Source: an uncultured cyanobacterium (GTDB lineage Bacteria > Cyanobacteriota > Cyanobacteriia > PCC-6307 > Cyanobiaceae). Taken from it: a stretch of DNA of 64,000 nucleotides. Below the pieces are notes generated by a model, which had not been told where the DNA came from, did not search any database, and saw nothing but the letters and a program-made list of their open reading frames with translations. The stretch is from NCBI GenBank assembly GCA_903823115.1, contig CAIJRN010000023.1:1-64000 (forward strand). Direction: 5' to 3'. Position numbers and translations under genes: made by a program. How positions within the stretch are numbered: the stretch's first letter is position 1; each line of letters starts with the position of its first letter. Of the stretch, positions 20,537-40,031 are shown piece by piece.

Positions 20537-21228
20537 ACTGCCCCTGTTGTTCGGCACCGCTGCAGGACAGCGGCCCCCGCTGCTCCTACTGCGGCAGCTA
20601 TCTGGACATCGACCTCGAGGGCTGGGCCAGGGCCGAGGTCCAGGGTCCGCGGGCGGATCTGCACTGCCCGGACGGCCACGGCCCGCTGGAGGCCATCCAG
20701 CTGAGCCATCCCTCCTCGATCAGCCTGGATCGCTGTCCCACCTGCCTGGGCCTGTTTCTCGAACACGGCACCCTGCAGCAACTGCTGCGCGAGGCGGTGG
20801 GCCCGGTCTGGGAGGTGGACACACCCCTGCTCAACAGCCTGGTGGAGTCGCCCCACAGCCAGCCTGGAGCGCTGCGCTACCGGGCCTGCCCGGCCTGCGG
20901 CGACATGATGAACCGCAGCCTGTTCGGCAAACGCAGCGGCGTGATCGTCGATCGCTGCCGCAGCCACGGCACCTGGCTTGATCCGGGCGAACTGCGGCAG
21001 CTGCTGGAGTGGACCCGAGCCGGCGGCGCGCTGCGCCACGAGGAACAGAGCGAGCAGGAACGCCTGCGGCAGGAGCTGCGGGAGACGCGCGAAGCAGAGG
21101 AACGGCGGCGCAGACTCGAAGGACTGGTGGCCCTTGAGACCAGTTCGCCGCAGCGCTCCCTGCTGGAGACGGATCTGCTGGTGCTGCTGGGGCGAGCCCT
21201 GCGCCAGCTATGGCGAGTCAGGGAGTAG
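20533..21228 (+). CDS. zinc-ribbon protein paired with SPFH protein
   Basis: 231 residues from GTG 20533. Three cysteine clusters: CPCC...CSYCG at the N-terminus, a middle CPDGHG...CPTC pair, and a TFIIB-type ribbon CPACG...DRCRSHGTWLDPGEL. A Glu/Arg-rich coiled coil (about 165-200) follows, then a conserved-looking tail ETDLLVLLGRALRQLWR. It probably binds zinc and works with the SPFH protein through the tight overlap. The tail recurs in a small reading frame at 24321-24386. Confidence 0.85.
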   Translation: MNCPCCSAPLQDSGPRCSYCGSYLDIDLEGWARAEVQGPRADLHCPDGHGPLEAIQLSHPSSISLDRCPTCLGLFLEHGTLQQLLREAVGPVWEVDTPLLNSLVESPHSQPGALRYRACPACGDMMNRSLFGKRSGVIVDRCRSHGTWLDPGELRQLLEWTRAGGALRHEEQSEQERLRQELRETREAEERRRRLEGLVALETSSPQRSLLETDLLVLLGRALRQLWRVRE

Positions 21229-21255
21229 CGATGACGATGGGGCGATGACGATGGG
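21228..21255 (+). repeat. 14-base direct repeat at the zinc-ribbon stop
   Basis: GCGATGACGATGGG occurs twice in tandem directly after (and touching) the stop codon at 21226-21228. Confidence 0.85.
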
Positions 21256-21276
21256 GCGAGAAAGGCCAGGAGCAGG

Positions 21277-23994
21277 TCACGAAATCATCTGCTTGCTGGA
21301 AGTCTGGACCAGTTTGCCATAGAGATCTTCGATACGAAGTGCCAGCTGGCGTAGCAGGCTTCGGCTGAATTCCGGCGATGTCTGCAACAAACTCTCGAAG
21401 CGATCCGACGGAAAGACCAGCAACTGCACGGGCTCATCATCGGCTCTCACCTGCGCCCGGCGATTGTGGTCTGCGAAGTAGGCCACTTCACCAATCGATT
21501 CACCAGCGAGCACCCTGGCCACAGGGATCAGCTGGCCATCGGGGCTATAGCCACGCAGAACCAGGCACTGGCCCTCCAGCAGAATCGCCACCAGGTCGGC
21601 GGGATCTCCAACCTGGAACAATCGGGCCCCGGGCTCCAATTGCCTCAGCTGACCCCAGCGCACCATGTTGAAGAGAGCCGCTGGCGACAGGCCCGACGCC
21701 AGTGGGACTGCCAGCAGGCGCCTGAGCAGCAACTGCTGCTCAGGACTGTTGTCGAAGAACAAGGAATCCTGGTTGTCAAGGCGCGAGCCGTCCGGCCGCC
21801 CCTGGCGCAGCAACGCCTCAGCCCGATGGGGTGATCGCTGGCTCTGCACCCACAACACCCATCGCGCCGTATCGGGATCCGGATCACTCCAGAGGCCATC
21901 GATCACATCGGCAGGATCCGGCAACTCACCAACAATCGCCTGATCACCGGGAGGCAGCCTCGGTGCGATGAGCTCGTGCCGAGGCTGCAGCGCAGCCAGC
22001 ACCTTGGCAGGGCAATCGCGGAGCAGGTGTTCAAACCGCAGGCGCACAGGGTGCTCGGGTTGGATCGCCTCCAGGCCGGGGCTTAGCGCCACGTAACAAC
22101 TGACAATGCGCCGGTCCATCACCGGCAGCAGGGGATTCAGCAGAGGCTCGAGCTCAGCCGCATTGGCCAGGCTCAGCCTGGCTGCCAACTGTTGGCTGAG
22201 AACCTCAACTTCTCTTTCCAGGTTGTTGATGGCGAAAGCAGAAGCTGGTCCAAATTGAGCCAGCAGCTCCTGCCAGCTGACATCATCGAGCCCGAACTGA
22301 CGACGGATCTGCTCCAGGCTCTCCTTCTGACGCGGATTACTGAGAATCTCCTGGGCATTGCTGCTCCCCTGTACCAAAGTATGCAGGGCCTGAAAAGCAG
22401 CCTGCTGACGCAGGTTACGGCTGTCCAACTGGAGCTGGTCGAGATCCAGGATGCGGGGGTCACTGATGGCCAGCACCCGGATCGCCGCGTAATGATCCTC
22501 ATCCACAAGGCCCAGGGACAGGCGTAGCTCCTCTAATTGCACCAACGACTCGGCTCGCTCCAATCGTCCCGTGCTGAACAGATCTTCCAACACGGAGCGA
22601 TAGATCTGGCGCTTGGTCTCTCCCACCTGAGCCGGCAACACCTTGGCCAGGGTATAAACCTCCTGGGGAGAGAGATCATTCAGGCTGCGTCCTTCAAGGT
22701 GCTGCTCAAACTGGGGCAAGATCTTGGCCAGCTGCCTGCGAAGACTGTTGCTGGCGCTCTCGCGGGTGTAGGTGCTGCGATCTCGGAACCAGCCGCGATA
22801 CAGCCACATGCCGCTGGCACCAAGCACCAGCGAGCGGAGCAACTGACCCGTCACGCCACCGAAAGCACCCAGGGAGGGATCGGCAAACCAGAAAAACCCA
22901 TTGACGGCAACAAAGCTGGCCAGCAGGCGGGTTTGGTGGCGGGCACGATCCCGGGCGCCCTCGGCATGGAGTGCCTTGCTGAGGCGACGGCCCATCCAGC
23001 GATCGACGGCGGTGAAGATCGCCACCGAAAGGCAGCCACCCAGCACCAGCAGAATCGGCAACGTGAACAAGCGCGGCAAACCCAAGCCCAAACCGTGGGG
23101 CAAAGGCGCGAAAATCAGCGAGATCGCCCGGCTGTCATAGGCCCACATCCCACTACGCAGATAATCAACTCCGCCACGAGATTCGTCCTGAATCAAGAGG
23201 AAAAAAGCGACAACCAGGCCCGGATAAGAATACCAAGCCCAATGCAGTCCAGGTTTTCCAGATAGACCTTGCCAGTAGGCCCGCTCCGAATCGATATCCA
23301 TGCATGGCGACTGGCAGGCAACACAGGCACTCATCTCCTTGCCACTGGCGCCGACGCTGCGGCACATCGATTGGGTCAGCGGCGAACCGGTCTGGAGTTG
23401 GGCAGCGGTGCCCAGCAGACTGCGCGGCCCGGTGATCAGGGTCTGCACCGGAGCCATCGGACAGAAGTACTGACACCAAGCCTTGCCGGCATAGGCCCAG
23501 CCAACCCCCAGGGCCGCCAGCGCCGTGAAAGCGAGGAACAGGCCCAGCGCCAGGGGATTGCTGTTGACCACGAGCAACCGCAGGCTCAGTCCGGCGATGA
23601 ACAGGGTCCACTGCAGCTGGACATGGTGACGGGCCAACCAGGAGTTGGCTTCCACCTTCACCACATCCCGCCGTCCACCCTTGCCAACCACCGTGCGCTG
23701 CAGGCCCAGGGCGCGGAACAGCTGGGAAACAAAAGCCAGGGGACAGATCCGTCGCCAGATCTCATGGCTGAGCAACACCAGCATCAGCACACCCAGAGGC
23801 ACCACGACCCCCCAGAACATCTGGTTGCCCTCGTGGTGATGGCACTGGCGCAGACCGCCGCAATGGTCAAGATCAAAAGGCCAGGGATCCCAGCCCGGCA
23901 CGAGCATGGTGAGGATCAGCGCGCACCAGCCAGTCAGCAGAGCCCAGCGAGCCAGATGGGCCCTTCTCTCGGACCAATGGCTCAGCGCCTGCAC
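21277..23994 (-). CDS. membrane iron-sulfur protein with C-terminal cNMP-binding domain
   Basis: 905 residues from GTG 23994. Residues 1-400 hold about seven membrane helices with NapH/CcoG-like motifs: C174-x3-C178 in WCQYFCPMAP, and C211 plus C224-x2-C227-x3-C231, enough for one or two [4Fe-4S] clusters. Residues 410-760 are an alpha-helical, Leu/Gln-rich cytosolic region. Residues 780-890 form a cyclic-nucleotide-binding domain with GESIGEVAYFADHNRRAQV, close to the phosphate-binding cassette. It may move electrons across or along the membrane under nucleotide control. Base composition is somewhat less GC-rich than in neighbours. The domain calls are firm; the physiological role is unknown. 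Confidence 0.85.
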   Translation of the reverse strand: MQALSHWSERRAHLARWALLTGWCALILTMLVPGWDPWPFDLDHCGGLRQCHHHEGNQMFWGVVVPLGVLMLVLLSHEIWRRICPLAFVSQLFRALGLQRTVVGKGGRRDVVKVEANSWLARHHVQLQWTLFIAGLSLRLLVVNSNPLALGLFLAFTALAALGVGWAYAGKAWCQYFCPMAPVQTLITGPRSLLGTAAQLQTGSPLTQSMCRSVGASGKEMSACVACQSPCMDIDSERAYWQGLSGKPGLHWAWYSYPGLVVAFFLLIQDESRGGVDYLRSGMWAYDSRAISLIFAPLPHGLGLGLPRLFTLPILLVLGGCLSVAIFTAVDRWMGRRLSKALHAEGARDRARHQTRLLASFVAVNGFFWFADPSLGAFGGVTGQLLRSLVLGASGMWLYRGWFRDRSTYTRESASNSLRRQLAKILPQFEQHLEGRSLNDLSPQEVYTLAKVLPAQVGETKRQIYRSVLEDLFSTGRLERAESLVQLEELRLSLGLVDEDHYAAIRVLAISDPRILDLDQLQLDSRNLRQQAAFQALHTLVQGSSNAQEILSNPRQKESLEQIRRQFGLDDVSWQELLAQFGPASAFAINNLEREVEVLSQQLAARLSLANAAELEPLLNPLLPVMDRRIVSCYVALSPGLEAIQPEHPVRLRFEHLLRDCPAKVLAALQPRHELIAPRLPPGDQAIVGELPDPADVIDGLWSDPDPDTARWVLWVQSQRSPHRAEALLRQGRPDGSRLDNQDSLFFDNSPEQQLLLRRLLAVPLASGLSPAALFNMVRWGQLRQLEPGARLFQVGDPADLVAILLEGQCLVLRGYSPDGQLIPVARVLAGESIGEVAYFADHNRRAQVRADDEPVQLLVFPSDRFESLLQTSPEFSRSLLRQLALRIEDLYGKLVQTSSKQMIS

Positions 23995-24429
23995 AAGACG
24001 GATAGCAAGACAGGAGCCAACTACAGCATATTTGCGGAAAAGTGCGGCATTTTAGGTAAAGCGATTAACACCGTTGTGCCGGCCTCACCCCATCTGTCGC
24101 GGAGGAACCGCCGGCGACCCCTGCCTCCCATGGCAGCGGCCTGGAGTCGATGGACCCCAGGCCGCTGGCCTACGGTTTGACCGATCAGCAGCAGCGGCCA
24201 TCGGAGCCGATGCTGATCAAGGGGAGCGCCGCAAGGCCACCACAGCCGCATCGCCGAGATGGCCGCCCGCACCCCATCGCCGCAGCCTTCGCCGACAGCG
24301 AACATGTCCCGCTCTCATCCAGCCTGCCGGAGACGGACCTGCTGGCGCTCCTTGGCCGGGCCCTCAGCCAGCGATGGCGAAACAGGCGTGACGCCGAGGG
24401 GAATGCAAGGAACAAGTGGCGTTGACGCC
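23995..24429. other. intergenic region between FeS/cNMP gene and coaE
   Basis: 435 bases. The first ~90 are AT-rich compared with the rest of the window and probably hold the promoter of the minus-strand iron-sulfur gene; I see no clear -35/-10 pair. The remainder carries a small reading frame (24150-24425) described separately. Confidence 0.5.
24150..24425 (+). CDS. possible small gene with a zinc-ribbon-protein tail
   Basis: 91 residues from ATG 24150, ending five bases before coaE. Most of it is Pro/Arg-rich and unremarkable, but residues 58-79 (SLPETDLLALLGRALSQRWR plus two) match the last residues of the zinc-ribbon protein at 21157-21222, with about 16 of 22 identical. It may be a genuine short gene, the end of a decayed paralog, or a targeting or interaction tail shared by two proteins. 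No Cys clusters remain. Confidence 0.4.
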   Translation: MDPRPLAYGLTDQQQRPSEPMLIKGSAARPPQPHRRDGRPHPIAAAFADSEHVPLSSSLPETDLLALLGRALSQRWRNRRDAEGNARNKWR

Positions 24430-26662: not shown

Positions 26663-27658
26663 ATGGATCCGCTGCTTCAGCGCCTGGAACCGTTCTGGTA
26701 TCCGCTGCTGCCCCTGCAGGAGCTGGGCTCTGAACCGACGGCCGTGACGCTGCTGGGGCGATCGCTGGTGGTGTGGCGCGGAGAGAACGGCCAGCTGGGC
26801 GTCCTGGACGATCGCTGCCGCCATCGCTCCGCCTCCCTCGCCGGCGGCCGCATCGGCGCCGAAGGGCATCTGCACTGCCCGTACCACGGCTGGGCCTTCG
26901 ACACCGGGGGCCGCTGCCGGCTCCTGCCCCAGCAACCCGACCAGCCGATCCCGGAGCGCTGCCACACCAGGGCCTACAGCGTGCAGGAGCGGCACGGGCT
27001 GGTGTGGGCGTGCCTGGCGCCGGAGGCCCGGCTGCCGATCCCGGCGCTACCGATGGCCGAGGCAGGCCGCCAGCGGCGCATCGAGGGCTTCCACGAACGC
27101 TGGCAGTGCTCCGCCTTCCGGGTGATCGAAAACGGTCTGGACAACATCCACCACTACTTCGTGCACCGGGGGGTGCTCGATGCCCTCTCCCCGGTGCCGG
27201 ACCCGATCGAGGGCGGCATCACCGTCACGGCGGACGGGCTGGAATTCAGCATCCCGCTGAAGGTGAGCACGACAGCGGCGCTGGAGGCCACCGTGGCGGA
27301 CGGCAGCGCCAGCCTGCGGGTGGAGCGACACGTGCGCTGGCTGGCTCCCCTGGGACTCACCCTCGAGCTCACCTGGCCCAACGGACGGCAGCAGTGCATC
27401 GTGCTGTTCGCCGTCCCCCGCGACGCCCAGTCCTGCACAATCCTGCGCTTCTATCTGCGCAATGACCTGGAAGCGGACGTGAGCGCCGCCAGCGTGATCG
27501 CCTTTGAGCGCGCCCTGATTGATCAGGATCGCCGCATCCTGGAGGCGATGCCGGCGCAGCTGGATCCCTGGCCCACAGGGGAGCAGCTGATCGAGGCTGA
27601 CCAACCGATCGCCCGCATGCGTCAGCTGCTCCAGAAGTTTCTGGCCACCAGCTCCTGA
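26663..27658 (+). CDS. Rieske non-heme iron oxygenase (PAO/Tic55-like)
   Basis: 331 residues. The Rieske [2Fe-2S] ligands are C52-x-H54 and C72-x2-H75 (CPYHGW). The catalytic mononuclear iron site is D160-x2-H163-x4-H168 within ENGLDNIHHYFVH, with the bridging aspartate kept. Such enzymes use electrons from ferredoxin to hydroxylate aromatic or tetrapyrrole-type substrates. Cyanobacterial relatives include pheophorbide a oxygenase-like proteins, but the substrate cannot be read here. Its 3' end overlaps that of the opposite Rieske gene by 37 bases. Confidence 0.88.
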   Translation: MDPLLQRLEPFWYPLLPLQELGSEPTAVTLLGRSLVVWRGENGQLGVLDDRCRHRSASLAGGRIGAEGHLHCPYHGWAFDTGGRCRLLPQQPDQPIPERCHTRAYSVQERHGLVWACLAPEARLPIPALPMAEAGRQRRIEGFHERWQCSAFRVIENGLDNIHHYFVHRGVLDALSPVPDPIEGGITVTADGLEFSIPLKVSTTAALEATVADGSASLRVERHVRWLAPLGLTLELTWPNGRQQCIVLFAVPRDAQSCTILRFYLRNDLEADVSAASVIAFERALIDQDRRILEAMPAQLDPWPTGEQLIEADQPIARMRQLLQKFLATSS

Positions 27659-28797
27659 ACGGAGGCCTTGGCGAAACCGAAATCGATCGGCGTGCCGGTC
27701 ATCTGTTCGAGGTAACGGAAGAAGTGGTACACCGGTGCATCGTTGCTGGAGGCATAGCCGATCGGCAGTTCCCCTGGATCCAGAAAGCGCGCCTGGCTTT
27801 CGATGAAGGGCCGATCTTCCTCGCTGTTCTGGATCGATAGATCGCGCAGCCGGTTCAGAAACGGTGGAAACTCCAAGCCCCCCCAGGTGCGGCTGTCGAT
27901 GTAGATGCAGCCGCGGGTCATGGTCGCCTTGGAGTCCTCCGGCACAAACAGCACGGCGATGTACAGCCCCTCGTCAAGCTTGTTGAGCCAGAGGTTCGGC
28001 GCTCCCCCCACCTTCCAGTAAGCCCGCAGGGAATCGCTGAATTGCTCATAGGTGACCAGCACCGAACGCTCCGCATCGTTGCGAACGACGTGCATGCCGC
28101 TGAGGGTTTCAGCGCCGAACCAGCTGCGCAGTCGATGCACCACCTGGGCGATGCCATGGACCTGAAAGCCATGGGTGTGGTCGATGCCGCTGGTGATCGT
28201 CAGGCCCCAGGGGCCACAGGGATAGCGGTACTCAAACAACGGATGGCAGCGGAAACGGCTCGGATCGTTGAGCTGCTCGAACTCCTGCGGCAACCGGATG
28301 GCCGCCCGGGCCGCCTCGACCTGCTCCGGCGCCATGGCGAGCTGGCCGCGGTCAGCGAAGAGACTGCGGCTCAGTGGCAGCCACAGGAACCCTCCCTCCT
28401 CCAGCAGCGGCAGGGTGAGCAGGGTCTGTGACTTGTCGTTCTCGCCATGCAGCGTGCGCACGCAGCGGCCCTGCTGGTTGAACGTCTGGGAATGGAACGG
28501 ACAGCGCACGGTGTCGCCCTCCACCAGGGGCGGCTCGGGCCCGGCGAAGAAGGAGACGAGTCGATGGGGGCAGCGATCGATGTGGGCCGAGGCGAGCCCA
28601 TCGGCACCCCGCAGCAGCAGCAACGGCAGCCCGAAGGCCTGCAGCGCCTTCGCCTGCTCCCGTCCCAATTCCACCGAGGCCAGCAGCGGCCAGGCCAGCG
28701 GCAGGCGCGACAGCCAGGGGCGACTGAGATCGAGGCTGGCCGGATCCCGCTGGCGCACCGACGGCTCGGGGGCTCCCTGCGCTGGCTGGTGGGTCAT
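27622..28797 (-). CDS. second Rieske non-heme iron oxygenase
   Basis: 391 residues. Rieske ligands C76-x-H78 and C99-x2-H102 (CPFHSQ); mononuclear site D206-x2-H209-x4-H214 in GIDHTHGFQVHG. The rest differs strongly from the neighbouring Rieske protein, so the two are not a recent duplication. No C-terminal membrane helices of the Tic55/PAO kind are obvious. It should be a ferredoxin-dependent oxygenase in the cytoplasm or on thylakoids with unknown substrate. It converges with and overlaps the other Rieske gene by 37 bases and is divergent from thiO. Confidence 0.85.
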   Translation of the reverse strand: MTHQPAQGAPEPSVRQRDPASLDLSRPWLSRLPLAWPLLASVELGREQAKALQAFGLPLLLLRGADGLASAHIDRCPHRLVSFFAGPEPPLVEGDTVRCPFHSQTFNQQGRCVRTLHGENDKSQTLLTLPLLEEGGFLWLPLSRSLFADRGQLAMAPEQVEAARAAIRLPQEFEQLNDPSRFRCHPLFEYRYPCGPWGLTITSGIDHTHGFQVHGIAQVVHRLRSWFGAETLSGMHVVRNDAERSVLVTYEQFSDSLRAYWKVGGAPNLWLNKLDEGLYIAVLFVPEDSKATMTRGCIYIDSRTWGGLEFPPFLNRLRDLSIQNSEEDRPFIESQARFLDPGELPIGYASSNDAPVYHFFRYLEQMTGTPIDFGFAKASVQELVARNFWSS

Positions 28798-34738: not shown

Positions 34739-36724
34739 TCAGCGGCGCGGCGCGGCTGAGCCATCGCCGGCGACGGCAGGATCTGCAGCGGCGGGGTCTG
34801 CAGTGGCAGGATCTGCAATGGCAGGGGCAGTGGCGGCGGGAGAAAACACCTCGATCTCGCCCAAGCCCTTCACCGGCTGGACGCCCAGAGACACCGGGGC
34901 GCCCAGGGCCGGATCGAGGCGCTCGGCCGTGGCGCGATCGAACAGCACCGGGGTCTGCAGGCTGCGGGTCAGCCCCTCGAGCCGGGCGGCCAGGTTCACC
35001 GTGTCGCCGATCACCGTGAACTCCATGCGGCGGGGACTGCCGATCTGACCCACCACCACCTGGCCACTGGCCAGGCCGATGCCGCTGTCGAGGCGAGTGA
35101 GGCCCTGGCTCTGCCAGCTGCGATTGAGTTCCGTCAGGGCCTGGCGCATCGCCTGAGCACAGGCCACCGCCGCGCGGGCCTCCACCAGCACGCCGCGGCC
35201 CACCGGCGAGCCGAAGACCGCCATCACCGCATCGCCGATGAACTTGTCGACGGTGCCGCCGTGGGCCGTGATCACCTCCACCATGGCGCCGAGGTAGGTG
35301 TTGAGCTGGCTGACATGCAGTTCGCTCTCGCCGGCGAGGCTGCGCTGGCGGGTCAGTTCGGTGAAGCCCTTGAGATCCGAGAACAACACCGTCACATCGA
35401 GCAGGCGGCCGCGCAGGATGCCCTGGGCCGCCTCGGGATCGGCCAGGATCTCAGCCACCACCCCCGGAGCGACATAGCGCTCGAAGGTGCGCCGCAGGCG
35501 GCGCCGTTCCCGCTCCTCCAGCAGATAGGCGTCACCGCCATGCAGCAGGGCCAGCAGCCCCAGGCCGGCAGCCGGGGCCAGCAGCGGCAGCCAGAGCTGA
35601 CGCTCTCGCAGAGCCAGCCCGGCGATCGCGACCTGCAGGATCAGGATCCCGGCGATGACGCCGAGCCGCCAGACCAGAGAACGGCGGGCCAGGGCCAGGG
35701 CCAGGACCAGCCCGGCCGCCAGCAGCACCGGCAAGACGGCCAGCAGGGCCCGCTCCCGATTGCCCTGCGGCCAGGGACGCAGCCCATCCCCCTGCAGGGA
35801 GTTGGCGGTGGCGGTGGCCAGCAGCTCCAGCCCCGAGAGCGAACCGAAGGCGGTGGGGTAGCCATCGTCGCCCTGGGCCACCACCGGACCCAGCACCACC
35901 AGGGAGCCGGCCAGGGCCGCCCGCTGCGGATGCCGCAGCCAGCGGCTGGGATCCAGCACCTCCCAGGCCGGCAGGCGACGGAAGCTCCCCTCCGGTCCGT
36001 AGACATTGAGCGCGGTCAGCTCGTCCCGCTGACGGCTGGAGCGACCGGCCCTGTGCAACAGGGTGGAGGAGAGCGAGGGGAAGGGCTTCACCCCCTGAGC
36101 CGGCAACAGGCCACGCCCATAGGCCTCCGGATGCAGCAGCCGCTCCCCCGGTGCACGCAACGGTGTGTTGGTGAGGCCAAGGGCGTCCTGACCGCCGACG
36201 GCCGCCATGAACGGCTCCGGCCGCACCAGGGTGAGCGCGCCGGAACCCTGTTGATCGGACGACTCGAGCATCTCCGCCGCCAGGGCGACGCGGCCCGGAT
36301 GGGCCCGCAGGATCGCCGTCATCGCCGCATCGTCGGCGGGGCCGTTGCGGCTCGGGCCCTCGAACACCACATTGATGGCCACAGCCGCGGCGCCCGCATC
36401 CAGCAGCCGGGCCGCCACCCTGGCGTAGGCAGCCCGCGGCCAGGGCAGCGTGCCGATTCCCCTGGCCCAGTCCGGGATCTGACGGCTCTGCTCAAACCAG
36501 CTCCCCTGCTGCAGGGTGGCGTCATCCACCGCCACCACCAGCACCTGGCGGGGCGGCCGGCGCTGGCCGCGAAGCACCAGCAACTGATCTTCGAAGGCCC
36601 GCTCCCAGACCCGCCAACGGGGGCCGGGCCAGCCCGCCGTGGCACCGCTCCAACCCACCACCAGGGCACTGAGCATCACCAGGGTGACGGGCCGCTTCAA
36701 CGCCTGGCTGGGTCTCACGAGCAC
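34739..36724 (-). CDS. CHASE2-domain adenylate cyclase
   Basis: 661 residues from GTG 36724. An N-terminal membrane helix, an extracytoplasmic CHASE2 sensor (about 45-320), two to three membrane helices (325-395), and a class III cyclase domain (440-625). Metal aspartates D450 (FSDLKGFT) and D498 (KFIGD), the substrate lysine K494, and N577/R581 in IGDTVNLAAR are all present, so it should be active; K494 favours ATP over GTP. The C-terminal tail is a degenerate ADPA(T/A) repeat from a 15-base tandem repeat. It lies next to a FecR-domain gene, a pairing seen in other cyanobacteria. Confidence 0.92.
   Translation of the reverse strand: MLVRPSQALKRPVTLVMLSALVVGWSGATAGWPGPRWRVWERAFEDQLLVLRGQRRPPRQVLVVAVDDATLQQGSWFEQSRQIPDWARGIGTLPWPRAAYARVAARLLDAGAAAVAINVVFEGPSRNGPADDAAMTAILRAHPGRVALAAEMLESSDQQGSGALTLVRPEPFMAAVGGQDALGLTNTPLRAPGERLLHPEAYGRGLLPAQGVKPFPSLSSTLLHRAGRSSRQRDELTALNVYGPEGSFRRLPAWEVLDPSRWLRHPQRAALAGSLVVLGPVVAQGDDGYPTAFGSLSGLELLATATANSLQGDGLRPWPQGNRERALLAVLPVLLAAGLVLALALARRSLVWRLGVIAGILILQVAIAGLALRERQLWLPLLAPAAGLGLLALLHGGDAYLLEERERRRLRRTFERYVAPGVVAEILADPEAAQGILRGRLLDVTVLFSDLKGFTELTRQRSLAGESELHVSQLNTYLGAMVEVITAHGGTVDKFIGDAVMAVFGSPVGRGVLVEARAAVACAQAMRQALTELNRSWQSQGLTRLDSGIGLASGQVVVGQIGSPRRMEFTVIGDTVNLAARLEGLTRSLQTPVLFDRATAERLDPALGAPVSLGVQPVKGLGEIEVFSPAATAPAIADPATADPAAADPAVAGDGSAAPRR
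34775..34819 (-). repeat. three 15-base tandem repeats at the cyclase 3' end
   Basis: GGC(A/G)GG(A/G)TCTGCA(G/A)(C/T) repeats three times in frame and a partial fourth unit follows. Confidence 0.88.
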
Positions 36725-36821: not shown

Positions 36822-37553
36822 TCAGAAGAAGCGCGGCAGGCTGATCGGCAGCGAAGGCAGCGTCACCGGCAACGACGGCAGCGACACCCCCGGCACATGG
36901 GCGCGCAGGTAGCTGTCGAGGGCCTCGGCGGCGGGCAGGGGCAACCGGAACCCCTCAAACAGCGGGCCGGAGAGGATGCTGCTGTAGTCCCCCGAACTCA
37001 GGGCCAGCAAGGTCAGCACCACCCCCTCGGGCGACAGGCGCAGGCGCTGGCCCGCCTGGACCGTGGCCGGAGCCGCGCCGGTGGGCTGGCCATCGCGCAG
37101 GGGTTCCACCTCGACCGAACCCTCCAGCACGGAGAGCTCGGAATCGCCGTTGTCCTTCACCTCCAGCAGGTAGTTGGTGCCGCGCACGCTCAGGCGAGCG
37201 GAACGGGTGCAGCCGCTCTGCTTGCCCGACACCAGAACCTGGCCGCGATCGACCAGAAAACAGCCCTGACCCAGCCGCAACATCGAGAAGCGGTTGAGCC
37301 GGCCGACCGCACCGGCCTCAAAGCGGATCTGGCCACGGCTGTTCTGGGTGCTGAGCTGCTGGGGCGCCTCGGCCTTCTCCTTGACCCTGGCCTGCTTCTG
37401 ATCGATGTAGAACTCCTTGCCATCGAGAATTTCCTGCACTTCAGCCGATTCGGCCGCCCGGGCCGCCGGGGCCAGCAGCAGCGTCAGGACCAGAAGGCCC
37501 GGCAGCAGGGCAGCCCTGGAACGTTGGCAAGAAGTCCGGAAAGCCGACGGCAT
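36822..37553 (-). CDS. secreted FecR-domain protein
   Basis: 243 residues from ATG 37553 with a clear signal peptide (RSRAALLPGLLVLTLLLAPAARA). The mature part carries a FecR-like beta domain around residues 95-165 (VDRGQVLVSGKQSG, SVRGTNYLLEV, LSVLEGSVEVEP). The end repeats SLPSLPVTLPSLPISLP. FecR domains transmit periplasmic signals; here no sigma factor is adjacent, but the CHASE2 cyclase follows 97 bases downstream, so it may feed periplasmic information to that sensor. This partnership is inference from adjacency. Confidence 0.82.
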   Translation of the reverse strand: MPSAFRTSCQRSRAALLPGLLVLTLLLAPAARAAESAEVQEILDGKEFYIDQKQARVKEKAEAPQQLSTQNSRGQIRFEAGAVGRLNRFSMLRLGQGCFLVDRGQVLVSGKQSGCTRSARLSVRGTNYLLEVKDNGDSELSVLEGSVEVEPLRDGQPTGAAPATVQAGQRLRLSPEGVVLTLLALSSGDYSSILSGPLFEGFRLPLPAAEALDSYLRAHVPGVSLPSLPVTLPSLPISLPRFF

Positions 37554-37599
37554 GGCGAAGCACCTGCAGAGTCCCATTCTGGGCGCACCAGCCGGGCCA

Positions 37600-38415
37600 T
37601 CACTCGGCACAGAAACGCACCAACATCGTCAGGCGATCCAGGGGAGGAGGCAGTTCGGCCGGATCAAAGGGGGGCGGCGCGGCATCGGCGGCGACGGCCC
37701 GCATCATCATCGGTCGAATTTCATTGCCATCCAGCACCACCTCCAGAGGGCGCAGTCGGGGAGCACCGATGACGCCGGCCAGCTCCCGGGCCTGAGCCTG
37801 GGCATCGCCATAGGCCCGGCGCAGCAGCTCGCGACGGACGCTGGCGTCCTGGGACGGATCGGCCTCGGTGCTGACCGGCGACAGCCGCACCCCGGCCAGG
37901 GCCCCCACCTGCCGGATCAGCGGCTGCAGCCGCTGCGGCAGCAGCCGACCCGTGACCTGCAGGCTGGCCTGAACCGCCGCCGGACGCGCCGTCTCGGCCG
38001 GGCGCTGCCAGGTGCTGGGGGAACTGGCCCGGAACTCCTGCACCTCCAGCCGCTGCAGGGCAGAGCGCACGGCCGCCAGCCGTCGCTGCAGCTCGGACAG
38101 GGCGCCATCGGTGTCGGCGGCCTCGGCCTCCAGCGCAAGAGAGAACTGCAGCCGGCGGATCGGGCGGGGCTGCTCGGCGCTGCCGCGGGCCTCCAGCTTG
38201 GTGCCCTCACAGCGCAGCTGCACCTCGGCCCGGGCGGCCAGCCCCGGCAGCAAGACGGCCGCCGCCAGAGCCGCGGCAGCCGCTATCTGCCCTGCTGCAA
38301 CAGCCGTCTGCCCTGCAGCAACAGCCATTGGCCCTGCAGCAACAGCCGGTGGCCCCGGAAGCCGGCAACGGCGGAACAGCACCTGCAGGGCAGGAGCCTG
38401 GCGGACGACGAACAT
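37600..38415 (-). CDS. SIMPL-domain (YggE-like, DUF541) periplasmic protein
   Basis: 271 residues. A long Ala/Gly-rich signal region (about 1-63) includes three copies of a seven-residue AVAAGQT-type repeat from a 21-base DNA repeat. The mature domain has the SIMPL pattern: LQVTGRLLPQRL, EADPSQDASVRRELLRRAYGDAQAQARELAGVIG, and a final acidic/proline segment. Related YggE proteins limit oxidative damage or bind envelope partners; the precise role is unknown. It is 46 bases upstream of the FecR gene and probably in the same transcript. Confidence 0.8.
   Translation of the reverse strand: MFVVRQAPALQVLFRRCRLPGPPAVAAGPMAVAAGQTAVAAGQIAAAAALAAAVLLPGLAARAEVQLRCEGTKLEARGSAEQPRPIRRLQFSLALEAEAADTDGALSELQRRLAAVRSALQRLEVQEFRASSPSTWQRPAETARPAAVQASLQVTGRLLPQRLQPLIRQVGALAGVRLSPVSTEADPSQDASVRRELLRRAYGDAQAQARELAGVIGAPRLRPLEVVLDGNEIRPMMMRAVAADAAPPPFDPAELPPPLDRLTMLVRFCAE
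38287..38349 (-). repeat. three 21-base tandem repeats in the SIMPL signal region
   Basis: Units at 38287, 38308 and 38329 share the core GCCCTGC(T/A)GCAACAGCC (plus-strand reading); in frame, extending the hydrophobic Ala-rich segment. Confidence 0.9.
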
Positions 38416-38549: not shown

Positions 38550-40031
38550 ATGCATGTGGTCGAGATCTGGATCGAGGCGTTCGCCGCCATCACAGCCCTG
38601 CTGCTGATCCGGCGGATTGCCCTGGGCCGTCACCTGCCCCTGCCGCCCTTGCGGCTGCCGCTGGTGGCGTTGTTGACCTGGGCGGTGATGCAGAGCCTGC
38701 CCCTGCCGCCCCTGGCAGCCAGCTACCGGCTCTGGTATTCCATTTCCGACGACCTGCTGCTCACCTATGCGGCGATCCGCCTGCTGATCTGGGCCCTGCT
38801 GGAGCTGCCGGGAGGCTTGCGCTGGTGGAGCCAGCCGCCGGCGCTGCTGATTCAGCTGCTGACCCTGGGGAGCTGGAGCCTGGCCACCGTGATGATGGTC
38901 CGCCAGTCGACCCACTTCGATCTGGTGGGCCTGGTGACCACCTCGGCCGTGCTGACGGCCGTCATCGGCCTGGCGGCCCAGGAGCCACTCAAGGATCTGT
39001 TCTCCGGTCTGGAACTGCAACTCGATGACGACTTCGTCATCGGCGACTGGCTGGAGGTGCCCGGGGGATTGCGGGGCCTGGTCACCTCGATCACCTGGCG
39101 CGACACCACCCTGCGCACCATGGATGGCTATCTCCTGGTGGTCCCCAACAGCAAGATCACCGCCGAGATTCACACCAACCGCTCCCGCTACGGCTTCTCC
39201 GGTGATCGCTTCACGATCGGCCTGGACTACGACTTCCCCCCCGCCCGGGCCCTGGCCCTGCTGGATCAGGTGGTGAGACAGCATCCCAAGGTGCTCGCCG
39301 ATCCACCTCCCCGGGTGCGGATCAAGGCCTTCGACGAGAGCGCCATCACCTATGAGCTGCAGGCCTGGCAACGGGAGCCGGGGGACCAGGCCATGGTCGA
39401 CCTGCGCAGCGATCTGCTCGAACAGATCTGGTATGCCCTCAAGCGAGAGGGCCAGACCATTCCCTACCCGGTGCGGGAGCTCGCTCGGCGGCGCTCGGCC
39501 GTCCCCGCCGACCTGGCCCAGCCGCCCGACCCGGAGGCCTGCTGCCACGCCCTGGCGGGTCACGGCGTGTTCGCTGAACTGGATGATGCCCAGATCCAGC
39601 AACTGGTGGCGGGCAGCCAATTGCTCGCCTACGGCCCAGGCGAAGCCGTGGTGGTGGAAGGGAGCGAAGGGGAATCGCTGTATCACCTGCTGCGCGGGCG
39701 CGTCGAGGTGATCAAACAAGTGGCGGATGGCCGCACCATTTCTGTGCGGGAACTGCAACCTGGCGACGTCTTCGGCGAGATGACGCTGTTTCTCGATGCC
39801 CCCCGCAGTGCCACGGTCAGGACGCTGCAGGAATGCCTGCTGCTGCGGGTCGGACGACCGATCGTGCGCGAACTGCTGCAGGCCAATCCCGCCCTGCTGG
39901 AACGCCTGGCCGGCCTCGTCGGCGCCCGGCAGGCGGAGCTGGAGAGCCTGGGCAAGGAGCAGATCGAAGCCCAGTCCAACGTCCTGATCGAAACGATGAA
40001 GACCCTGTTTCTGGCCGTACGCGGCGGCTGA
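38550..40031 (+). CDS. MscS-family channel with cyclic-nucleotide-binding domain
   Basis: 493 residues. Three or four membrane helices (1-130), the MscS pore and beta domain (about 125-300) with GLAAQEPLKDLFSGLELQLDDDFVIGDWLEV and VVPNSKI, then a linker and a CNB domain (about 345-470) whose phosphate-binding cassette FGEMTLFLDAPRSATV looks competent for cAMP. This is the bacterial cyclic-nucleotide-gated (bCNG) layout; such channels usually do not respond to tension. It lies 134 bases from the divergent SIMPL-FecR-cyclase genes, so locally made cAMP is a plausible ligand. Confidence 0.9.
   Translation: MHVVEIWIEAFAAITALLLIRRIALGRHLPLPPLRLPLVALLTWAVMQSLPLPPLAASYRLWYSISDDLLLTYAAIRLLIWALLELPGGLRWWSQPPALLIQLLTLGSWSLATVMMVRQSTHFDLVGLVTTSAVLTAVIGLAAQEPLKDLFSGLELQLDDDFVIGDWLEVPGGLRGLVTSITWRDTTLRTMDGYLLVVPNSKITAEIHTNRSRYGFSGDRFTIGLDYDFPPARALALLDQVVRQHPKVLADPPPRVRIKAFDESAITYELQAWQREPGDQAMVDLRSDLLEQIWYALKREGQTIPYPVRELARRRSAVPADLAQPPDPEACCHALAGHGVFAELDDAQIQQLVAGSQLLAYGPGEAVVVEGSEGESLYHLLRGRVEVIKQVADGRTISVRELQPGDVFGEMTLFLDAPRSATVRTLQECLLLRVGRPIVRELLQANPALLERLAGLVGARQAELESLGKEQIEAQSNVLIETMKTLFLAVRGG

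Follow-up and report, generated by a model that had tools for sequence, protein, structure and literature searches.

What a cyclic nucleotide-binding domain might control when it is fused to a membrane iron-sulfur protein is the question raised by a gene in a 64,000 nt stretch of contig CAIJRN010000023.1 (assembly GCA_903823115.1), which belongs to an uncultured cyanobacterium of the Cyanobiaceae and is hereafter called the window. The interval 21277-23994 is occupied by one open frame on the minus strand, with a GTG at 23994, a stop ending at 21277 and 905 codons. An earlier reading made from the letters alone (the sequence-only reading) had described one chain consisting of a membrane iron-sulfur (Fe-S) part, a helical region and a CRP-type cyclic nucleotide-binding (CNB) domain, and this layout was confirmed in a single 905 amino acid (aa) frame with the following parts:

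21277..23994, minus strand, whole gene of 905 codons: membrane Fe-S core, helical region and CNB domain
22705..23994, minus strand, membrane Fe-S core, residues 1-430 (AlphaFold model with a predicted local distance difference test value, pLDDT, of 85.8 and a predicted template modeling score, pTM, of 0.87)
21730..22704, minus strand, helical region, residues 431-755, with a conserved block at about 433-530
21379..21645, minus strand, CNB domain, residues 784-872 (PF00027, E 8.2e-15, 55 bits with the cut-off at 27.5)

We tentatively read the product as an effector-gated membrane [4Fe-4S] electron carrier; it would belong to a NapH-like family of its own and might, in the lineage of the window, be gated by cyclic AMP (cAMP). 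No published description of this architecture was found in the literature searched, most subscription papers lying outside it, in line with the sequence-only reading, which knew of no characterized protein with such a layout; what appears new is the joining of parts of known types in an uncharacterized modular family. The frame behaves as a real gene under purifying selection: a relative (locus L034; L and G numbers denote loci and genomes throughout) is 83% identical to the window protein over the whole length and the ratio of nonsynonymous to synonymous substitution rates (dN/dS) between the two is low, at 0.168 overall, 0.124 for the core and 0.165 for the CNB part. The only full-length match in its own 3.4 Mb genome is the gene itself. 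The neighboring frames are divergent on the upstream side and convergent on the downstream side, directions that rule out an operon with the neighbors in the window, and the gene is therefore probably its own transcription unit; a search of positions 20900-24400 for sigma-70-like promoters returned none.

Seven invariant cysteines in the membrane core

The core was aligned for 70 members, the window protein and 69 homologs. Seven cysteines (C84, C174, C178, C211, C224, C227 and C231) are invariant in all 70 and are also kept in both aligned Rhizobium homologs, a degree of conservation far beyond chance. The sequence-only reading had proposed [4Fe-4S] cysteine motifs and staked its interpretation on their conservation; the residues stood this comparison, but the motifs amount to one CX3CP and one irregular four-cysteine set rather than the regular pattern of NapH. 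The cysteine features are:

23743..23745, minus strand, Cys84 of the R-R-[IV]-C-P stretch (R81, R82, C84 and P85 invariant, 70/70)
23461..23475, minus strand, CX3C of the CX3CP motif (C174 and C178, with P179 next; 70/70), inside the Fer4_5 region 152-189
23302..23364, minus strand, four-cysteine set C211-X12-C224-X2-C227-X3-C231, candidate [4Fe-4S] site (70/70)
23842..23862, minus strand, loop cysteine pair C45 and C51, residues 45-51 (69/70 members, the remaining one having a gap)

The core model (residues 1-430) contains nine helices of at least 20 residues, eight of which (9-31, 55-75, 124-143, 147-167, 250-271, 308-338, 344-370 and 379-402) are predicted, from our reading of hydrophobicity and charge, to span the membrane. 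Judging from the charge distribution, the invariant cysteines and the entire tail would lie on the cytosolic side. The loop of the four-cysteine set has a low pLDDT, and its geometry is unreliable in the model. The loop with C45 and C51 would face the outer (periplasmic or lumenal) side; because both residues are missing from the two aligned Rhizobium homologs, a lineage-specific plain disulfide is the likelier role for this pair, and a DsbD-like electron path to the outer pair, which we had also considered, is weakened by the same absence.

The likeness to NapH and CcoG that the sequence-only reading saw in the helices is real but weak. Fer4_5 (PF12801) matches the window protein at residues 152-189 with 16.6 and 17.9 bits and thus misses its gathering cut-off of 22, but is found at E <= 0.01 in 69 of the 70 core members, and L077, L090, L038 and L022 exceed the cut-off. 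The NapH/MauN profile TIGR02163 is matched at this threshold by 7/70 members (best E 1.8e-4) and the CcoG profile by 4/70, while the window core itself has no NCBIfam match at E <= 0.01 and stays under the curated NapH/MauN cut-off. According to PMC5928378, the module shared by NapH, NosR and RdhC has two CX3CP motifs, and NapH and NosR carry two C-terminal 4Fe-4S binding motifs. The window protein resembles this group in its helical membrane part, in a CX3CP motif beside further Fe-S cysteines and in weak profile similarity. It differs in having a single complete CX3CP (C174-X3-C178-P179), the other being reduced to C84-P85 with Trp80 at the place of the first cysteine, in having only the one irregular set C-X12-C-X2-C-X3-C, and in its eight helices read as transmembrane, the added regulatory tail of 470 residues and the lack of any match to an FMN (flavin mononucleotide) domain. 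That the core is NapH or CcoG proper is ruled out by its motif pattern and its profile scores. We consider it very probable that this is an Fe-S protein, and likely, with somewhat less confidence, that it transfers electrons.

CcoG is a cupric reductase, and an accessory reductase or maturation factor of this kind would reduce a metal or cofactor at the membrane for the assembly of some other enzyme, with the tail restricting the conditions. The CcoG profile is indeed among the weak matches, the loop cysteine pair is kept in 69/70 members, and the plasmid copy of Leptolyngbya BL0902 has zinc/metal ABC-transport genes at a distance of a few kb. However, the full-length window protein matches CcoG/RdxA/FixG (TIGR02745) only around residues 153-228 with E 0.18 and 10.7 bits, far under the cut-off of 316.7, the cysteine pair is missing from both aligned Rhizobium homologs, and neither a recurrent metal-related neighbor nor oxidase-assembly genes were seen among the neighbors examined, all of which makes such a role quite improbable.

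One core with exchangeable tails

The family is uncharacterized and mainly cyanobacterial, with further members on rhizobial plasmids. Within the order of the window, a homolog at E <= 1e-20 was found in 42/150 genomes, the window's own genome counted, and a sample of the phylum contained the core in 29/244 genomes and 21/108 genera. A scan of a contig collection yielded 192 confirmed loci, and the 80 best were retained; all counts out of 80 refer to these, and their titles all name cyanobacteria. Of 72,556 plasmid records, 54 contain a match, and rhizobial genera account for 45 of these.

By domain profiles, one core carries exchangeable tails in this family: CNB, FHA plus CNB, FHA alone or EF-hands. 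The window protein, L042 and L090 have a CNB-only tail, L043 and L063 combine FHA and CNB, a protein of about 815 aa at L077 (L077:5250-7694) has an EF-hand tail without CNB, and a Rhizobium etli homolog has an FHA tail without CNB. The sequence-only reading had suggested a search for the domain order across genomes; the relatives include CNB-tailed ones, but also members in which FHA or EF-hand tails take the place of the CNB domain. In the tree, window-type proteins form clade A, one of two main clades; among 45 scanned relatives of clade B, CNB was present in 41, FHA in 19 and EF-hands in three, and the conserved block of the helical region showed a weak ENT likeness, with matches in 8/45 relatives. 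A separate scan detected FHA at 25/80 loci. Likely the other two EF-hand members are L076:7983-10427 and L086:7983-10427, which have the same length and no aligned CNB. L123 is an EF-hand protein by the depositors' annotation only; Pfam gave no match at E <= 0.001, and it was not counted. A tail-less core of 462 aa is encoded on a Rhizobium leguminosarum plasmid (L121:7911-9299) amid genes for GH15, GMC oxidoreductase and ferritin-like proteins.

The cyclic nucleotide-binding domain

The presence of a CNB domain in the window protein is certain. Foldseek and VIA both matched this part to CRP-type domains, and the predicted model aligned with GlxR bound to cAMP with Z 18.8 and a root-mean-square deviation of 1.9 over 144 residues. 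A full-length fold search returned CNB matches together with sperm Na+/H+ exchangers (SLC9C1, a transporter-CNB fusion); the latter, with a TM value of about 0.13, were set aside and the CNB matches alone accepted. Functional binders of cyclic nucleoside monophosphates (cNMPs) carry a glutamate and an arginine in the phosphate-binding cassette, and both are there in the window protein, which in fold and cassette pair resembles the CNB domains of CRP-type proteins and cyclic nucleotide-gated (CNG) channels but differs from them in its fusion to a membrane Fe-S protein:

21448..21492, minus strand, phosphate-binding cassette, residues 835-849, with Glu836 and Arg845 (both residues in 18/66 CNB-bearing members)

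The loss of key cassette residues in homologs had been named as a result that would speak against nucleotide binding. The window protein keeps them, but most of the family does not: the cassette arginine is missing in 47 and the Glu/Arg pair in 48 of the 66 CNB-bearing members. Along the tree, the pair was found in 12/20 rows of clade A (Asp for Glu in L034 counted) and in 7/50 rows of clade B. Because pair-bearing members fall in both main clades, cassette integrity appears to have changed several times in the family, and most of the clade-B paralogs examined probably do not bind a cyclic nucleotide. For the window protein, we consider binding of cAMP or cGMP slightly more probable than not.

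Cyclases in the vicinity of the gene

If the window CNB domain does bind a cyclic nucleotide, a source can be sought nearby. The following features were recorded:

34739..36724, minus strand, CHASE2 plus class III nucleotide cyclase (CHASE2 E 3.8e-26, cyclase E 4.3e-18)
38550..40031, plus strand, MscS-type channel with its own CNB domain (NCBIfam MscS E 6e-19, CRP E 2e-14, both under cut-off)
L056:6188-7780, L083:6097-7620, L067:5827-7368 and L046:8432-9913, all minus strand, CXXCH-bearing cyclases beside FHA plus CNB Fe-S proteins

The CHASE2-cyclase is the only match to PF00211 (class III cyclase) detected in the window's genome; it lies 10.7 kb from the Fe-S gene (13.6 kb start to start) and is the likely source of the CNB ligand. 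The MscS-CNB channel, 14.6 kb from the gene, is a candidate for a second nearby cNMP effector. Between these two, an FecR-domain protein (25 bits, cut-off 24) is encoded at 36822-37610 on the minus strand.

Counted among the PF00211 matches listed (down to about E 1e-17), 16/25 window-type copies have a cyclase at a start-to-start distance of at most 20 kb, versus 1/26 clade-B copies of the same order; a few more cyclases may lie near either clade (for example in G073, with two matches but none listed). Of the nine window-type copies left over, five have every listed cyclase on a different contig (G135, G104, G010, G054 and G094) and two are far from the listed ones (G143 and G083). In clade B, a CXXCH-bearing cyclase is located 0.2-3.7 kb away in 4/7 members with the Glu/Arg pair, namely in L056, L067 and L083, where it is divergently adjacent at 0.2-0.6 kb, and in L046 at 3.7 kb, all four Fe-S proteins having FHA plus CNB tails. 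The L056 cyclase was recognized by Pfam as a Tll0287-like plus cyclase protein, the other three by a local profile only. A signaling-type Tll0287 domain is reported in a 2026 preprint to bind nitric oxide (PMC12889525). L049, L050 and L063 keep the pair and have no cyclase in the flanks covered, and among clade-B rows without the pair a listed cyclase was found within 20 kb in 1/39.

Taken over the 60 decidable rows, a cyclase is linked in 11/15 with the pair versus 4/45 without it (Fisher test, 4e-6, relatives treated as independent), a count that has unequal radii, 20 kb in clade A and mostly flanks of <=8 kb in clade B. At a single radius of 10 kb for all rows, 7/15 versus 1/45 are linked (1.2e-4, again with relatives treated as independent). 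This association bears on the idea that the CNB domain is a relic or a plain dimerization domain throughout the family, window included, and that the protein is constitutively active or otherwise regulated. Such a family-wide relic would fit the missing pair in 48/66 CNB-bearing members and the existence of members whose genomes lack any class III cyclase match, as in G032, G069 and G086 and also in Synechococcus RCC307, which is probably the same species as G086 (L021 and L040 have identical match figures). It sits poorly, however, with the retention of both residues in the window protein and in 12/20 clade-A rows, with the constraint on the CNB domain (dN/dS 0.165) and with the tendency of the pair to go with a nearby cyclase, even if this reflects few independent events; we hold a relic domain to be improbable.

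A linked reductase in other lineages

A gene for a reductase with flavin adenine dinucleotide (FAD), nicotinamide adenine dinucleotide (NAD) and [2Fe-2S] domains lies directly downstream of the Fe-S gene on the same strand at >=20/80 loci, at 19 of them within 0.6 kb and at L049, as a partial frame, 1.3 kb downstream. The count of 20 is a minimum, as L034, L041, L050, L053, L107 and L108 have <1 kb of downstream sequence. The reductase goes with the FHA tail: 18 of the 20 reductase loci are FHA-tailed, seven FHA loci are without reductase (among them L050 and L107 with their short downstream flanks) and at 53 loci both are missing. The reductases of L054 and L099, the two cyanobacterial ones scanned with Pfam, themselves contain an FHA domain. 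In Rhizobium etli a plasmid carries the genes in this order as well, Fe-S protein then reductase, but its reductase has no FHA match. The L054 reductase resembles GbcB and Hcr-type FAD-NAD-[2Fe-2S] reductases, its best NCBIfam matches being GbcB (E 2.9e-115) and the NADH oxidoreductase PRK10684 (E 2.3e-60), which we take to be Hcr; both scores are below cut-off. The R. etli genes are part of a block on plasmid pRsp8C3a (L120:6651-13276) in which the genes for the FHA-tailed homolog and its reductase lie together with that for a di-haem cytochrome c peroxidase, divergently oriented, a few kb from repC.

This linkage matters for the view that the protein is not an enzyme but a redox sensor, whose Fe-S core would sense redox state or nitric oxide and signal via the tail to a protein partner, with the CNB domain tuning the response; a sensor role is also what was first thought for NosR-type proteins. 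FHA and EF-hand tails are typical of signaling, in Leptolyngbya boryana the gene just upstream, in the same orientation, encodes a kinase-WD40 protein, and the window has no adjacent same-strand partner gene, all of which is consistent with a sensor. A pure sensor would not need a reductase of the NADH-oxidoreductase type, however, and one adjoins the gene in part of clade B, nor was an output domain (kinase, cyclase or DNA-binding) found fused in the members scanned. A sensor without enzymatic function is therefore, in our judgment, rather unlikely, if less so than the accessory reductase or the relic domain.

A proposed mechanism

In the effector-gated carrier that we propose, the protein would reside in the inner or thylakoid membrane and its activity would be set by the cytosolic receiver tail. 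In the lineage of the window, the CNB tail would bind a cyclic nucleotide, most likely cAMP from the CHASE2-cyclase, and binding would shift the helical linker and thereby open or close electron flow. Electrons would pass from a soluble donor to the Fe-S clusters on the cytosolic face of the core and on to a membrane acceptor. The donor would be the linked reductase in part of clade B and in R. etli, and probably ferredoxin in the window lineage; the acceptor may be a quinone or something in nitrogen-oxide chemistry. What the sequences show is the invariant cysteines, the CNB fold, the Glu/Arg pair, the exchangeable tails, the reductase linkage and the cyclases nearby; clusters, electron transfer, ligand, gating, acceptor and the donor in the window lineage are inferred from these. 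That ligand binding gates electron flow is a conjecture we rate at a little under even. The sequence-only reading had inferred a membrane redox module switched by cAMP or cGMP. The invariant cysteines and the reductase gene of other lineages agree with a redox module that has a regulatory tail, whereas the switch holds up for the window protein, with Glu836, Arg845 and the cyclase 10.7 kb away, and not for the family as a whole, with its 18/66 pair-bearing members and its FHA or EF-hand tails.

Several results weigh against this mechanism. The window CNB domain has a second arginine directly after Arg845, where known binders have Ser, Thr or Ala. At E <= 0.001, a Foldseek comparison of the core with PDB folds yielded no hit that could reveal a redox site, in a library whose content of NapH or NosR structures was unchecked; the best hit of a second fold comparison (Z 6.0, 79 residues of an ABC importer) was not taken as meaningful, and a PDB sequence search with the core profile had no match up to E 10. 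The cyclase linkage is partly inherited synteny, because gatB, cyclases and the MscS-CNB channel are neighbors in many picocyanobacteria and this region is kept also in genomes where the Fe-S protein was not found (e.g., G013, G014, G028 and G055); we claim no functional proof from it. The remaining two of the nine unlinked window-type copies, G032 and G086, belong to genomes without a cyclase match, and G032 even keeps the Glu/Arg pair (L017). With the radius set to 10 kb, the cyclase of the window itself counts as unlinked, L018, L019, L020 and L078 are cyclase-linked without having the pair, and tree-corrected tests offered three usable independent pairs on supported branches, too few for significance. 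Finally, a search at E <= 1e-40, without positive control, found the linked reductase in 0/150 genomes from the order of the window, while the same query recovers 20 loci of other orders by blastp. Because of this absence, the donor in the window lineage probably differs from the linked reductase, and ferredoxin is our guess; in the window's genome the reductase query matched three sequences of ferredoxin length, partially a 396-aa frame and weakly one further sequence.

In a wider and more speculative version, to which we give only a modest chance, the core would serve as a socket for exchangeable plugs, CNB (cAMP), FHA (phospho-peptide) and EF-hand (calcium), through which different signals would gate a single redox line fed by NAD(P)H or ferredoxin. 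In some filamentous cyanobacteria the plug would be served by a c-haem cyclase of the nitric oxide-binding type encoded next to it, so that nitric oxide would trigger cAMP synthesis and cAMP in turn would open a membrane redox route for nitrogen oxides. To our knowledge, the known targets of cyanobacterial cAMP are few, and if a redox protein were controlled directly by a CNB domain of the same chain, cAMP would gain a new output, electron flow itself. The swaps of CNB, FHA and EF-hands on one core represent a natural experiment for gating, and the cyclases near the gene in picocyanobacteria, together with the CXXCH-bearing ones in some filamentous cyanobacteria, turn the role of cAMP into a concrete and falsifiable proposal.

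Further neighbors of the family members

No neighbor is universal across the loci. An nrtABCD-type operon, which could serve either nitrate or the related bicarbonate transport, lies upstream of the gene in L089 and L091; in L075 operon and gene are divergently oriented:

L091:2105-7690 (plus strand), L089:2533-7960 (plus strand) and L075:1870-7474 (minus strand), nrtABCD-type operons next to the Fe-S/CNB gene

These operons, the likeness to NosR and NapH and the CXXCH-bearing cyclases are hints pointing to nitrogen-oxide chemistry. Single-linkage clustering of neighbors, in which many clusters were frame artifacts from high-GC DNA, had assembled an nrtA-like cluster of 11 loci; it holds only for L075, L089 and L091, with nrt/cmp-type operons, plus an ABC gene at L104. 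Directly upstream in Crocosphaera-type loci are genes for a ParA/MinD-like ATPase (L102:1998-2792, plus strand) and a small protein that resembles MarR with a score under the threshold (L105:7467-7964, plus strand). At up to 16 loci, many from heterocystous cyanobacteria, a TPR plus DUF928 protein is encoded about 0.3-0.5 kb upstream (for example L054:6621-7607, plus strand, the one copy scanned).

In the window, 26663-27658 (plus strand) and 27622-28797 (minus strand) form a tail-to-tail gene pair adjoining gatB, which from sequence motifs we take to be Rieske-type oxygenase-like. Fragments 67-72% identical to the window protein were found at G010:C45:111338-112025 and G142:C9:350-1258. In genome G010 the fragments lie near gatB and a longer gene copy is present elsewhere, on a different contig, a pattern suggesting that the gene decays and turns over.

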